DNA of 64,000 bases from contig CAJCIP010000018.1 of NCBI GenBank assembly GCA_903970445.1, positions 1-64,000 on the forward strand. The letters run 5' to 3'. The stretch is from Verrucomicrobia bacterium Tous-C9LFEB. GTDB taxonomy: Bacteria; Acidobacteriota; Terriglobia; Terriglobales; Acidobacteriaceae. The position numbers were made by a program, and so were the translations under genes. The notes beneath the pieces were generated by a model, which was given only the letters and a program-made list of their open reading frames with translations, was not told where the DNA came from and made no database searches. Shown one piece after another: positions 7,113-43,540 of this stretch (position 1 is its first letter; every line of letters starts with the position of its first letter).

Positions 7113-7508
7113 TTAGCGCGATAGTAGAACGACGCCGACAGCTACGAACGCCGCTGCCGCCCACCTGCGCTGATCAACGTTCTCGCGAAGAAAGAACTTC
7201 GCTGCGAAGGCATTGCCGACGTACGTGAGGGCCGCTGTCGCTGGCGCAGCGAAGGAAAGATCGACAACGCTGAGGGTGTAGAGCATGGCGAAGAAGTTGA
7301 GCCCCATGCAGAGCGCTCCGGCCAGGAAGACTGGACTTGTGAGTATGGCGCGTATAGCGCCGAGCAGGCCTGATCGCGCCCGAATCAAGTCAAGATCGCC
7401 GATGCGGCGCATTGCTGATGCGATCAGGGACTCACCGGTGATGGCCAGAGCAGCGACGCAGGCGATGCAGCTCCATGTCTGAACGACAGTTGCATTCGGG
7501 CGAATCAG
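7113..7508 (-). CDS. EmrE-sized four-helix membrane protein (DMT superfamily), probable CTG start
   Basis: A small hydrophobic protein of 131 residues if it starts at CTG (7508-7506). The first ATG in frame (7412) would remove the first transmembrane helix, TWSCIACVAALAITGESL. That segment aligns with the N-terminal helix of the preceding paralogue (QWMVLVAVMSTASVGDSLL), so it should be translated. No ATG, GTG or TTG exists upstream of 7412 before a stop. The CTG overlaps the upstream TGA (CTGA) and has GGAG seven bases before it, like the GTGA and TTGA overlaps of the hpn genes. The C-terminal half (DLSFAAPATAALTYVGNAFAA) resembles EamA/SMR-type transporters. Substrate is unknown; it may form a heterodimer with its neighbour. 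Confidence 0.68.
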   Translation of the reverse strand: MIRPNATVVQTWSCIACVAALAITGESLIASAMRRIGDLDLIRARSGLLGAIRAILTSPVFLAGALCMGLNFFAMLYTLSVVDLSFAAPATAALTYVGNAFAAKFFLRENVDQRRWAAAAFVAVGVVLLSR

Positions 7509-39421: not shown

Positions 39422-39985
39422 ATGACTGAGCAAGCATCAGGCGCGTCGCGCGTGAACACAGTAGCTGTCATCGGCGCTGGAACCGCAGGACGCGCCTTTG
39501 CTTTGCGCTGTGCATTAGCCGGCTTCAAGGTTGTGCTTGAAGACGTTATGCCCTCAAAGTTGCGACGCGCTCAGGACGAGTATGCTGAGTGCTCCGCCGT
39601 CCATGCTGATCGATTGCGGTATGCCAGCACGGTCGAAGATGCCGTGGCGGACGCTGATCTTGCCATCGACTTCGTTCCAGATGAATTGGAATCGAAGCTA
39701 GAAATCTTCAGCATGTTAGACCGCATGGCTCCGCCACGCACCATCTTCTGCACGCCGACGGAAGCTCTCAGCATCAGCGACCTTGCTTCCTGTACCTACC
39801 GCCCGGATCGCTGCGTCGCCGTGCGATGGGACAGGGACACTGAAGTGTCCATTGTTCGGAGCAGATTCGTCACTCCACTTACGCAATCATTGACCGTCAG
39901 TATGTTTGAGCTGCTCGGCTATGAAACATCTCTAGTGCAAGACATGCTGGAGCCAATGCTGACGAAGACTGCCAGGCGAGCCTAG
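39422..39985 (+). CDS. 3-hydroxyacyl-CoA dehydrogenase-like Rossmann domain, truncated and lacking catalytic His
   Basis: 187 residues. The NAD-binding motif VAVIGAGTAGRAFALRCA is intact, and the DLAIDFVPDELESK segment matches the family. The C-terminal helical domain that completes active 3-hydroxyacyl-CoA dehydrogenases is missing. The HFFNP-type motif holding the catalytic His reads CVAVRWDRDTEV here. It is therefore unlikely to be a normal dehydrogenase. It may be a regulatory or degenerate relative, or a subunit. It starts three bases after the small upstream gene. The stop is a clean TAG, with no sign of a lost downstream exon-like frame. Confidence 0.8.
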   Translation: MTEQASGASRVNTVAVIGAGTAGRAFALRCALAGFKVVLEDVMPSKLRRAQDEYAECSAVHADRLRYASTVEDAVADADLAIDFVPDELESKLEIFSMLDRMAPPRTIFCTPTEALSISDLASCTYRPDRCVAVRWDRDTEVSIVRSRFVTPLTQSLTVSMFELLGYETSLVQDMLEPMLTKTARRA

Positions 39986-40004: not shown

Positions 40005-41981
40005 TCAGTTCGAAGCCCGATTCTGTTCGCATGCGCTCGGCTTTTGCATGTCGGCGCGCGCCTCGTTTACCGCTCCCTGTGTGTTGTCGTTTGTCTGAAC
40101 TGCGGAGCGGTATTCGTTGACCGCGCGTTCACGCTGACCGGTGCAGTCGAAGATTTTTCCAAGATTGATATGACTCCAAACCTCGGTCCATTTGGGATCG
40201 CCATCGCCGCGCAGCGCATCGCGGAAGCTGTTCGCTGCAGACTGATAGTTCTTCTGCATCATGAAGATTTCAGCCAGCCGGTAATTCGCGAGCGAACTTC
40301 CGCGATTAGCGTCAAGAGCTTTCTGATACTCGCCAATGGCTCCGAGCAGGTCGCCTTGAGCCACATCCTGCTGTCCGCGTAGCACTGCTACCCGGACAGC
40401 AAGGTCTGGAGTGCTCTTGAGCAGCCAGTTGTCGGGGTCGATCGTGATGCGGCGTGGACGGCCAAACGTTTCGATAGAGTAGTGCGATTCCGGTCCCGCG
40501 AGATCGACGCGGCGGATCTCGGTCTTGCCTTCCGTTTCGATGCGCAATTCAACAGGCATGCGAAACAGATCAAGATCTTCCGTCACTGTCCCCACAGTGC
40601 GGAAACCCTTGTTGCTGCCGAGGCGGAAGACTGAAAAGGTATTGCCGAACTCTGGTGCTCCGGTGCCATCGAGCCACTGTGAGAAAAACGCCTGAAGATT
40701 CTGCTGAGACTGCGCTTCGGCAATGGTCTGTACGTTCGCGGTACGAATGCTCCTGTCGGTGTATTGCGACAGCATCGCGCGCAGGAACTGAGTAAACGCG
40801 TCGTCGCCAAGTTCCCAACGAAGCATGTGGAAGACCATGGCGCCTTTTTCCAGCGTCATGTTCTGGAACTGCGGGGAGAATGGATCGAGCCGGCCCAACG
40901 TCGTCAAAGGCTCAGTGTCGTAGGAAATCGCTCCCGCCTCTACATCGGTGACAGCCGATTGAAGCGAGGTCTTGCCGCCGGTGTCTTCCAGGTACATCAA
41001 CTCCGCGTAACGGGACATGCCGTTCGTGATCCAAGCGTCATTGAGTGTTGCTGGAGAGATTTCCGATCCCCACCATTGGTGCGCTACTGTGTTCGCCAGC
41101 AAGCGTGGACTCGCACGGTCCGTACGGATTGCCACCACTTCGGGACCCCACGCCGCAGAAACGGAATCAGCAGGCAGTTCCACCACGTCGATACGCGATG
41201 ATTCCGCCGAGCCGAAGGTGCTGCTCATGTACTCGAACTGACGGGCGACGGTGGCAGCAAGGTCGGGCGCCTTGGCCTTGTTGGCTTCAGTCAGGTAGAC
41301 GTGAACATTTGGTATGCCCGGCGCGCTGACCGGCGCAAGAAACTTGCCCGCAACGATTGTTCCCGGAAAGCCGGGCTTGGTCCAGTTGAAGATAAACTCC
41401 GTGCGTCCGCTTGTGGTGGGGTGCTGTGTCTTGAAGCCGCTGCCGATCACACGTTCGCCAGTCGGCACGGTGATGTGTGTTTCCGCCGTGAAGCGATCCG
41501 TGAACAAGCCCGGCATCGAGATCGGGAACCAGCGACCTGCATAAAGAAGCGTGCTGACCGGGTCGATCACTTGCACAAACTTGATGCCATCGACCGGGCT
41601 TGTGCCGATGTTCGGCACGCCTGAGTACGTGAACGTCCAGGTCGCGACAGTTCCTTTGGTGAGCAGCGTTTTGGGCTGCACGCGCACCGTGGAGTCGCTC
41701 ACGTTTCGCTCCGAGTTCAGCACTGCATTCGTGTTGTCCACGATCTTTGCGACCTGTAGCGCGTTGTTCAAGCCAAACGGAACTGAAGTGAGGTCGTCGA
41801 GCGCGGTAAAGGTCACGGCTGCGGTTGCCGACAGCGTTCCCGTTGCGGGATCGAGATCGGCGTGAATGACATAGCCGGAGACATCGATCTGCGGACGGCT
41901 GGGCGTCGCTGCATGTAAGGCGGCTCCCGAGAGGGCGGTAAGTGTTGCAATCACAAATGCAGTGCGAAGTCGCTGAATCAT
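40005..41981 (-). CDS. M1-peptidase-like exported protein with lost zinc site and C-terminal TPR repeats
   Basis: 658 residues with a signal peptide (about 1-25). The overall M1 layout is recognisable: an N-terminal beta domain, the AHQWWGSEISPATLNDAWI segment, and a C-terminal TPR region (about 540-640, LGAIGEYQKALDANRGSS). The catalytic HExxH is replaced by NTVAH, and the third ligand Glu of the NEGF-type motif by Asn (TNGMSRYAE). The GAMEN substrate motif is also missing. It is thus probably not a peptidase but a binding protein. It lies 63 bases after lpxB on the same strand. Confidence 0.85.
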   Translation of the reverse strand: MIQRLRTAFVIATLTALSGAALHAATPSRPQIDVSGYVIHADLDPATGTLSATAAVTFTALDDLTSVPFGLNNALQVAKIVDNTNAVLNSERNVSDSTVRVQPKTLLTKGTVATWTFTYSGVPNIGTSPVDGIKFVQVIDPVSTLLYAGRWFPISMPGLFTDRFTAETHITVPTGERVIGSGFKTQHPTTSGRTEFIFNWTKPGFPGTIVAGKFLAPVSAPGIPNVHVYLTEANKAKAPDLAATVARQFEYMSSTFGSAESSRIDVVELPADSVSAAWGPEVVAIRTDRASPRLLANTVAHQWWGSEISPATLNDAWITNGMSRYAELMYLEDTGGKTSLQSAVTDVEAGAISYDTEPLTTLGRLDPFSPQFQNMTLEKGAMVFHMLRWELGDDAFTQFLRAMLSQYTDRSIRTANVQTIAEAQSQQNLQAFFSQWLDGTGAPEFGNTFSVFRLGSNKGFRTVGTVTEDLDLFRMPVELRIETEGKTEIRRVDLAGPESHYSIETFGRPRRITIDPDNWLLKSTPDLAVRVAVLRGQQDVAQGDLLGAIGEYQKALDANRGSSLANYRLAEIFMMQKNYQSAANSFRDALRGDGDPKWTEVWSHINLGKIFDCTGQRERAVNEYRSAVQTNDNTQGAVNEARADMQKPSACEQNRASN

Positions 41982-42044: not shown

Positions 42045-43400
42045 TTACTTGTTAGACGCAGGTTCCGGGCTATCGGACTTACCTGAGAGCTTGGAGCACA
42101 GAAGAGAAAGCACGGTACTCGCTACGCGGTCGACCGCTGAATTCAGGCGGGTAGTGCCGTCGAGTCCATGGAGTAACTTCTGGCGGACGGTTGCCAGCGC
42201 AGCTATCTGGCCTTCGCGCTCGTGGCCATCCGCCAGAAGCGGTGAAAGCGCCGAGGCGACGTTCGAAGCCGTGAAGCGATTTTGGAGCAGTTCTGGAACG
42301 ATCCGCCCTTGAGCGATCAGGTTCGCCATGGAAACCGGCGGATCGCCGTGAAGGTCGGTCATACGGGCAAACTCCTCGGGATATCTGACGAGTCTGCGCA
42401 GCAGCTGGTATGACAGTGAGGAGACGCGGTAGACCACGACGAACGGATTGCCAATGACCGCCGCGAGCACAGTGGCAGTACCGCTAGCGACTACGGATGC
42501 ACGTGCGTGAAACAGGGCTTCGGCTGCGTCGGGTACTAAGGTCAGGCGCACCGAAGAGGCCTCGGGGCCGTAATACTTCAGGTGTTCGGCGTTCAATTCG
42601 GCGATGTAGGCTTGCAGCCGGTCAGCGTCGATTGTTGATGCTACGGGCAACAGGAACTCGTAGCGGGTGTAGGCCGCCGGATTTGCGGGTGAGGTTAGCC
42701 GCTCACCGTCGAACATGGTGTGTGCCGCTGCGGTGGTCATCAGGTCGGTCATGGCCAGTTCGTGCAGCGGAGGCAGATTCGCGCGGATCTCCTTCCAGCG
42801 ACTGCCTGGAAGCAAGGCAATCCAGGTCTTCGCTGGGTCGAGGTTGTACTGTGCAGCGTATGCCTCGCGTGAACTCTCCGGACGGGGCAGCTCGGCCAGT
42901 GGGTGCCCAACGAACTCTGCGTTAACTCCGCGCTGGCGATAAAAAGTCTCTTCGAACGGGAAGATAACCAGCATCCGGTCGACACGTTCCTGCACCCAGC
43001 GAAGGCGTCCACGCTTCCAGGCCCAGAGTTGTGGGCTGACGAACCAGACGACAGGCACACCGGCTCTCCGGAGATGTTTTGCCAGGCGGAAGTTCACATC
43101 CGGGAAGTCGATGAGGACGGCAACGTCTGGACGTTGCTGTCGGATGCTGCGTACGAGTTTGCGGTAGCTGGCGTAAATGCGGGGGATGTGGCGAATGATC
43201 TCCGTCACACCCATGACGGCAACGTCTTCGGCGCGGACGACGCGGGTCTGGCCTGCGTCTTGCATGCCGCGACCACCAAGGCCCGTGAACGCCGCACGTG
43301 GGACCTGTTCGTGTAACGCACGGATGATCGCTGCGCCATAGGCGTCGCTGGAGGCTTCTCCGGCGGAGATGAAGATGCGTGGATTGGAAAGGGACGTAAT
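42045..43400 (-). CDS. lpxB: LpxB, lipid-A-disaccharide synthase; start codon unusual or frameshifted
   Basis: The frame from the first ATG (43265) gives 406 residues but lacks the conserved N-terminus. In frame upstream, the DNA encodes RIFISAGEASSDAYGAAII, the expected LpxB start, back to ATT at 43400 right after a TGA (43403-43401). No ATG, GTG or TTG lies between. Starting at ATT gives 451 residues, a long but acceptable length. Other motifs (DFPDVNFRLAKHLRR, VSPQLWAWKRGR, LLPGSRWKEI, SGTATVLAAVIGNP) are normal. It joins two lipid X-type monosaccharides in lipid A synthesis. The alternative is a one-base frameshift after GTG 43404. Confidence 0.85.
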   Translation of the reverse strand: MTSLSNPRIFISAGEASSDAYGAAIIRALHEQVPRAAFTGLGGRGMQDAGQTRVVRAEDVAVMGVTEIIRHIPRIYASYRKLVRSIRQQRPDVAVLIDFPDVNFRLAKHLRRAGVPVVWFVSPQLWAWKRGRLRWVQERVDRMLVIFPFEETFYRQRGVNAEFVGHPLAELPRPESSREAYAAQYNLDPAKTWIALLPGSRWKEIRANLPPLHELAMTDLMTTAAAHTMFDGERLTSPANPAAYTRYEFLLPVASTIDADRLQAYIAELNAEHLKYYGPEASSVRLTLVPDAAEALFHARASVVASGTATVLAAVIGNPFVVVYRVSSLSYQLLRRLVRYPEEFARMTDLHGDPPVSMANLIAQGRIVPELLQNRFTASNVASALSPLLADGHEREGQIAALATVRQKLLHGLDGTTRLNSAVDRVASTVLSLLCSKLSGKSDSPEPASNK

Positions 43401-43411
43401 TCACCCAGTCT

Positions 43412-43540
43412 ATCGTCCCCTGGGGTACCCCACCCCCCCTGTCGCATAGCTAAGGTCTTGCAACGAGACGACTTAGTGCACGAAGTCCGGGCAAAGTCTT
43501 CAAAGTAAAAGGTTTAGGTATAAAGTCTTGATTCTAAAGT
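43412..43540. repeat. intergenic composite: GGGGTACCCC palindrome and AAAGTCTT repeats
   Basis: GGGGTACCCC (43422-43431) is followed by a C-tract. AAAGTCTT then occurs twice (43493-43500, 43522-43529), with a related AAGGTCTT at 43453-43460. The segment lies between lpxB and the divergent DUF1905 gene and is richer in A and T than its surroundings. It looks like a small non-coding repeat element of the kind scattered in acidobacterial genomes (recollection, not tested). Confidence 0.4.

Follow-up and report, generated by a model that had tools for sequence, protein, structure and literature searches.

Enzymes of the M1 metallopeptidase family hold the N-terminus of the bound peptide with their GAMEN motif. 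Some M1 homologues are inactive, such as TAF2 and the nematode protein MNP-1, and to our knowledge there is no bacterial case in which an inactive M1 family spans a phylum and has lost its active site many separate times. Outside the M1 family, BepA of E. coli is a periplasmic, active protease that also degrades LptD, and LapB/YciM is a cytoplasm-facing TPR regulator of LPS synthesis that has no peptidase fold.

According to the available part of PMC11266112, the yeast protein Tma108 is an inactive M1 homologue whose pocket holds nascent chains and which retains all active-site residues but one; no bacterial inactive M1 case is named in that part of the review. The available part of PMC8423444 describes BepA as an M48 domain combined with TPRs that contact both LptD and BAM. 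BepA assists LptD assembly, and part of its chaperone-like activity survives in the protease-dead variant E137Q (PMC8423444).

Here, we describe a protein of 658 amino acids (aa) that combines an M1 fold with a C-terminal TPR domain and is encoded on the minus strand of the window, that is, the whole 64,000-nucleotide stretch of DNA analysed. Inactive M1 homologues are already known as a kind, and this protein is a new variant of it. Because its metal site has been lost while the gene persists as a near-universal single copy, usually behind lpxB, a binding role in outer-membrane building is probable. We found no paper on the protein in the open-access (PMC) literature. Its gene, its domains and the neighbouring lpxB gene are as follows.

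40005-41981, minus strand: gene for the putative M1-fold and TPR pseudo-peptidase (658 aa), from the open frame, Pfam M1 and TPR matches, structure model and fold search
41907-41981, minus strand: probable Sec signal peptide, residues 1-25, with a hydrophobic stretch to LHAAT, recognised by eye
41292-41894, minus strand: M1 N-terminal beta domain (D1), residues 30-230, from the structure model and a PDB alignment over 24-521
40662-41291, minus strand: thermolysin-like, former catalytic domain (D2), residues 231-440, from PF01433 at 282-436 and the model
40416-40661, minus strand: beta-sandwich domain (D3), residues 441-522, from the model
40032-40415, minus strand: TPR domain, residues 523-650, seven helices at the C-terminus, from Pfam TPR_2/TPR_19 and the model helices
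42045-43400, minus strand: lpxB, lipid-A-disaccharide synthase (PF02684 / TIGR00215), 63 bases upstream of the M1+TPR gene on the same strand

An earlier interpretation of the locus made from the letters alone (the sequence-only reading) had proposed an M1 relative with an intact frame and a retained fold, and both the single uninterrupted open frame and the M1 relationship are confirmed. Pfam places Peptidase_M1 (PF01433) at residues 282-436 (E 4.3e-16; 59.6 bits against a gathering score of 27.7), and TPR_2 exceeds its gathering score, with TPRs near 533-640. The AlphaFold model, built with 63 sequences (mean pLDDT 86, pTM 0.79), has the M1 fold with D1, D2 and D3 all present, followed by seven helices spanning 524-645 that make up the TPR domain. 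Every one of the best 50 Foldseek matches of this model is an M1 aminopeptidase; TAF2 is not among these 50, an absence that carries no weight. The best PDB matches, all M1, cover residues 24-521 with Z scores of about 38, and VIA-align superposes the model on the Deinococcus two-domain M1 structure 6koy_A over 403 residues (Z 38.7, rmsd 3.4). Hydrophobic N-termini also occur in most other rows of the profile alignment A1. The TPR repeats, which had been regarded as added, are indeed present; they are no recent addition, being common to the whole phylum-wide family.

The protein shares the D1-D3 fold, the QWWG and KG motifs and PF01433 with M1 peptidases such as the Deinococcus two-domain enzyme, LTA4H and ERAP1. 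It differs from them in lacking the complete HExxH...E zinc triad, the catalytic Glu, the catalytic Tyr and the GAMEN (GxMEN) motif, and in having a C-terminal TPR domain and a lipid A neighbourhood. The residues concerned are listed below.

41133-41162, minus strand: position of the GAMEN motif, residues 274-283, here SAAWGPEVVA, from the alignment with outgroup M1 rows
41091-41093, minus strand: N297, replacing the first zinc His (N in 106 of 107 own-family rows)
41079-41081, minus strand: H301, the second zinc His, retained (H in 97 and R in 10 of 107 own-family rows)
41022-41024, minus strand: N320, replacing the zinc Glu (N in 97, D in 9 and F in 1 of 107 own-family rows)
40851-40853, minus strand: L377, replacing the catalytic Tyr of the YxKG motif, from the alignment of family rows

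The site thus reads NTVAH...TNG, its NTVAH and third-ligand Asn having been noted before, with T298 aligned to the catalytic Glu; ordinary M1 outgroup rows have GGMENSSAI or similar where this protein has SAAWGPEVVA, and the absence of GAMEN noted earlier holds. A claim that all metal ligands had gone was wrong, and we rejected it: two of the three are lost and H301 is kept. Within the taxonomic family of the source genome (f1; 107 distinct rows, with named loci from Granulicella, Edaphobacter, Terriglobus and other Acidobacteriaceae), the block 293-330 has a conservation of 0.867, above every domain average. Such conserved residues at the former site could mean a real ligand or an unknown chemistry in the pocket.

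Our profile searches covered the phylum of the source genome. The first search gave matches in 61 of 61 genomes, some of those from the source's own genus matching only through TPRs or through another M1 gene. At the level of the class, 288 of 299 sampled genomes match profile A1 at E<=1e-60, nearly always once, and the same threshold is reached by 89 of 199 genomes in the phylum sample. Full-length members of the M1+TPR family (E<=1e-97) are found in 65 of the 199; the remaining phylum matches score below 260 bits and nearly all stop near model position 530, i.e. without the TPR part. The family counts include no row below 260 bits and also omit the divergent L199 (G159, 246 bits, one stop). 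Orthologues with the same substitutions, which the sequence-only reading had suggested searching for, were found in the source's own family, where position 297 is Asn in all distinct rows but one.

Several observations on individual genomes accompany these searches. The source genome also carries an ordinary M1 gene, since a contig-end M1 sequence on contig 22 (L002) has an intact HESGH...HEG and GMEHQ. Contig 65 (L003, 94-2214) encodes another degenerate M1 homologue, 706 aa long, that reads HSLTH...DEG, scores under the Pfam gathering score and has no TPR. An Acidobacteriaceae-like copy with 64% identity (L073) occurs in a record titled Rhodanobacteraceae, which is probably a mislabelled bin. 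One genome bin (L079) has a stop at 7195-7197 that splits the frame between the M1 part and the later part.

The gene stays under purifying selection. Over 15 pairs, dN/dS ranges from 0.03 to 0.28 and is below 0.09 in 10, with the reservations that the pairs L043/L044 and L184/L186 contain extensions running from stop to stop, probably non-coding, and that dS is saturated for the pair of the source gene and L005. In the diverse family-wide set, the TPR domain is on average the most conserved of the four, its mean top-residue frequency being 0.615, compared with 0.571 for the beta-sandwich, 0.460 for D1 and 0.479 for D2.

A full zinc site is present in none of the 107 distinct own-family rows. 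Across the 217 distinct rows of the M1+TPR family, counted without L133 (382 aa), which falls below the 350-letter limit of the ligand and conservation count, all three ligands are kept in 8, two in 4, one in 118 and none in 87, so that the site is incomplete in 209. Our tree comprises 135 rows, with the zinc columns removed and the L133 fragment and L124 excluded, and was built by a quick method with SH-aLRT support only. On it, 13 of 13 outgroup M1 rows have the complete site, against 8 of the 122 rows from the family. These eight occupy three places in the source's class (L247/L248; L237, L238, L242, L245 and L249, which form one family of the class; and L029), and a single ancient loss was therefore rejected. 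Counting losses only gives 15 events, or 12 or 10 once branches with support under 80 or 95 are collapsed; if regain is free, the minimum is 7 changes, which requires full sites to have been regained. The tree thus implies about 10-15 independent losses, on the loss-only assumption, of a zinc site that is old. Even close sequences differ: L237 (HEISH..DEG) and L239 (YAIAN..DAG) are 82% identical.

The substitutes vary by lineage, with NTxAH..N in the source's own family, NQxxR..N in f6, DEIAQ..QY in f2 and QExxQ..DH in f8, and with REVAY..SQ and RRxAY..AD at the zinc site in other classes. In families f1 and f6 (e.g. L222-L236), which are separate on the tree, the first and third ligands are both replaced by Asn, and ligand 2 is His or Arg in f1 and Arg in f6, an apparent convergent replacement. 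GAMEN is missing from all aligned family rows inspected, including those with a complete triad, most of which read GGYSAPG or similar. This pattern suggests an order of erosion in which GAMEN went first and the zinc site then went repeatedly, while the fold was kept. Because eight rows keep the full site and two of them (L242 and L245) also the catalytic Tyr, peptidase activity may be of importance to some lineages. Orthologues with an intact HExxH, which the sequence-only reading would have taken as a sign of local mutation, do exist among the 217 family rows, but all eight belong to other families of the class and indicate no local difference.

The position next to lpxB, noted earlier, was verified and recurs widely. 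Of 80 near relatives, 76 have lpxB on the same strand and upstream of the M1+TPR gene, directly adjoining it in all but L064 (1.75 kb away); the remaining four (L072, L073, L084 and L112) have less than 740 bases of upstream sequence. Eight of 10 further genomes from another family of the class (f5) have the two genes adjacent. Within the phylum sample, 41 of 65 members adjoin lpxB (18/21 in the class and 23/44 outside it), G179 and G132 have it about 1.5 kb upstream, G033 lies at the end of a contig, and the other 21, mostly from the REVAY..SQG clade, show no linkage. The pair is separable, since 20 of these 21 genomes carry lpxB elsewhere. Lipid A synthesis does not require the M1+TPR family, because lpxB is present in 186 of 199 phylum genomes and the family in 65. 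Beyond or upstream of lpxB there are an lpxL-like acyltransferase (L262 and L263, upstream) and an MsbA-like ABC transporter (L261 and L266), both below equivalog cut-offs, and MnmA (L269, L270 and L276). No terminator-like or promoter-like site was found in the stretch scanned. On the other side of the M1+TPR gene, and convergent with it, a plus-strand gene at 39422-39985 encodes a protein of 187 aa in which 3-hydroxyacyl-CoA dehydrogenase is represented by its NAD-binding half alone (Pfam 13-134); homologues of this protein are found downstream in 21 of the 80 loci.

The absence of full sites in the source's family (0/107), retention in 288 of 299 class genomes, purifying selection and the lpxB link together give good support to the conserved non-enzymatic role that had been proposed. 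We consider it reasonably probable that the protein is secreted and acts without catalysis, as a binding or assembly factor, in the envelope or in lipid A biogenesis, the envelope link being suggested by genomic context. We infer a periplasmic location (from the signal peptide seen by eye), the absence of zinc, inactivity, a binding role and a client. The M1 metallopeptidase fold and the C-terminal TPRs would form a joint binding platform, secreted and free of zinc, in which a partner protein would bind to the TPR domain and an extended peptide or beta-strand of the client would sit, uncleaved, in the former substrate cleft. The protein would then act as an assembly factor or adaptor in lipid A or outer-membrane biogenesis, and our working model is a BepA whose proteolytic branch has been discarded.

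Tma108, TAF2 and MNP-1 offer a parallel for an M1 fold serving binding, as proposed here, but they are eukaryotic, have no TPR and have no link to lipid A. With BepA, the protein shares an HExxH-type fold joined to TPRs, and it may share secretion as well, to judge by eye from its signal-like N-terminus. BepA has the M48 fold, however, and the 658-aa protein is M1 by its Pfam and fold matches and so is no BepA; the source genome, which is about 94% complete, has two M48 genes, neither of which appears by eye to be M48+TPR. A role like that of BepA, exerted specifically on a protein of LPS transport, is by analogy conceivable but doubtful. The 658-aa protein also resembles LapB/YciM, to which it has only a weak, sub-cutoff TPR match, as a TPR protein with a probable tie to LPS synthesis.

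A binding function could also serve something other than outer-membrane building: the old cleft may bind peptides for sensing or scavenging and the TPR domain relay a signal, the lpxB site being merely a convenient promoter. The conserved cleft-region residues of the source's family, the Tma108 precedent (available part of PMC11266112) and the 21 of 65 phylum members without lpxB linkage agree with such a protein, which we nevertheless hold to be unlikely, as the gene repeatedly stands next to lpxB, in several phylum-level families and also with other lipid A genes, and GAMEN is gone in all the aligned family rows inspected. An enzyme with a changed active site, using another metal or metal-free chemistry through N297, H301 and N320, would explain why the substituted triad is near-fixed in the source's family (N 106/107, H 97/107, N 97/107). 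However, the catalytic Glu and Tyr have gone too, and the lineages differ chemically (DEIAQ..QY, QEVAQ..DH, REVAY..SQ, RRxAY..AD, NQxxR..EN), which fits lost constraint and structural repair rather than one new chemistry; we regard this explanation as improbable.

Loss of catalytic residues, taken alone, would fit a dying gene in neutral decay, as it would an error that is local or arose in assembly. Such an origin is very hard to reconcile with class-wide retention, low dN/dS, the identical substitution of position 297 in 106 of 107 own-family rows and the family-length matches listed for the genomes of the first search, which have no internal stop, and a local or assembly artefact was rejected on these grounds. 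Returning to the non-catalytic envelope factor, a broader version of it is that the family is an ancient LPS or outer-membrane biogenesis factor of Acidobacteriota, built from M1 and TPR parts and encoded alongside lpxB, whose non-catalytic function has been primary throughout. We advance this only tentatively, as somewhat short of an even chance; with such a function, nothing would have kept the zinc site from disappearing in parallel on ten or more occasions. Pseudo-enzymes are usually viewed as single losses, and this family shows many parallel ones. A near-universal gene with so many losses, together with catalytic-looking relatives, offers a natural experiment on a metal-free metallopeptidase fold, and the linkage to lpxB points towards an unknown factor of the outer membrane in a soil phylum that is abundant and little studied.

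The neighbouring lpxB gene has an unusual 5' end. The list of open reading frames starts it at 43265, while the homologous N-terminus extends to an ATT at 43398-43400 (minus strand). There is no usable ATG, GTG or TTG; a TGA immediately precedes the ATT, and TAGACT followed by six bases stands ahead of it (43398-43412, minus strand). Among 105 distinct lpxB 5' ends, 28 have no ATG, GTG or TTG within 30 codons, and in 29 of 103 a TA[ACG]ACT box lies 5-7 (mostly 6) bases ahead of an ATC or ATT, which is nearly always exactly 12 codons ahead of the AGEAS motif. Here and in many relatives, lpxB therefore appears to start at a conserved ATC or ATT. The same box stands 6 bases ahead of an ATG in L077 and of a GTG in L076; its occurrence before ATC/ATT and, in these relatives, before ATG/GTG suggests a leaderless lpxB mRNA that begins at AUC or AUU.
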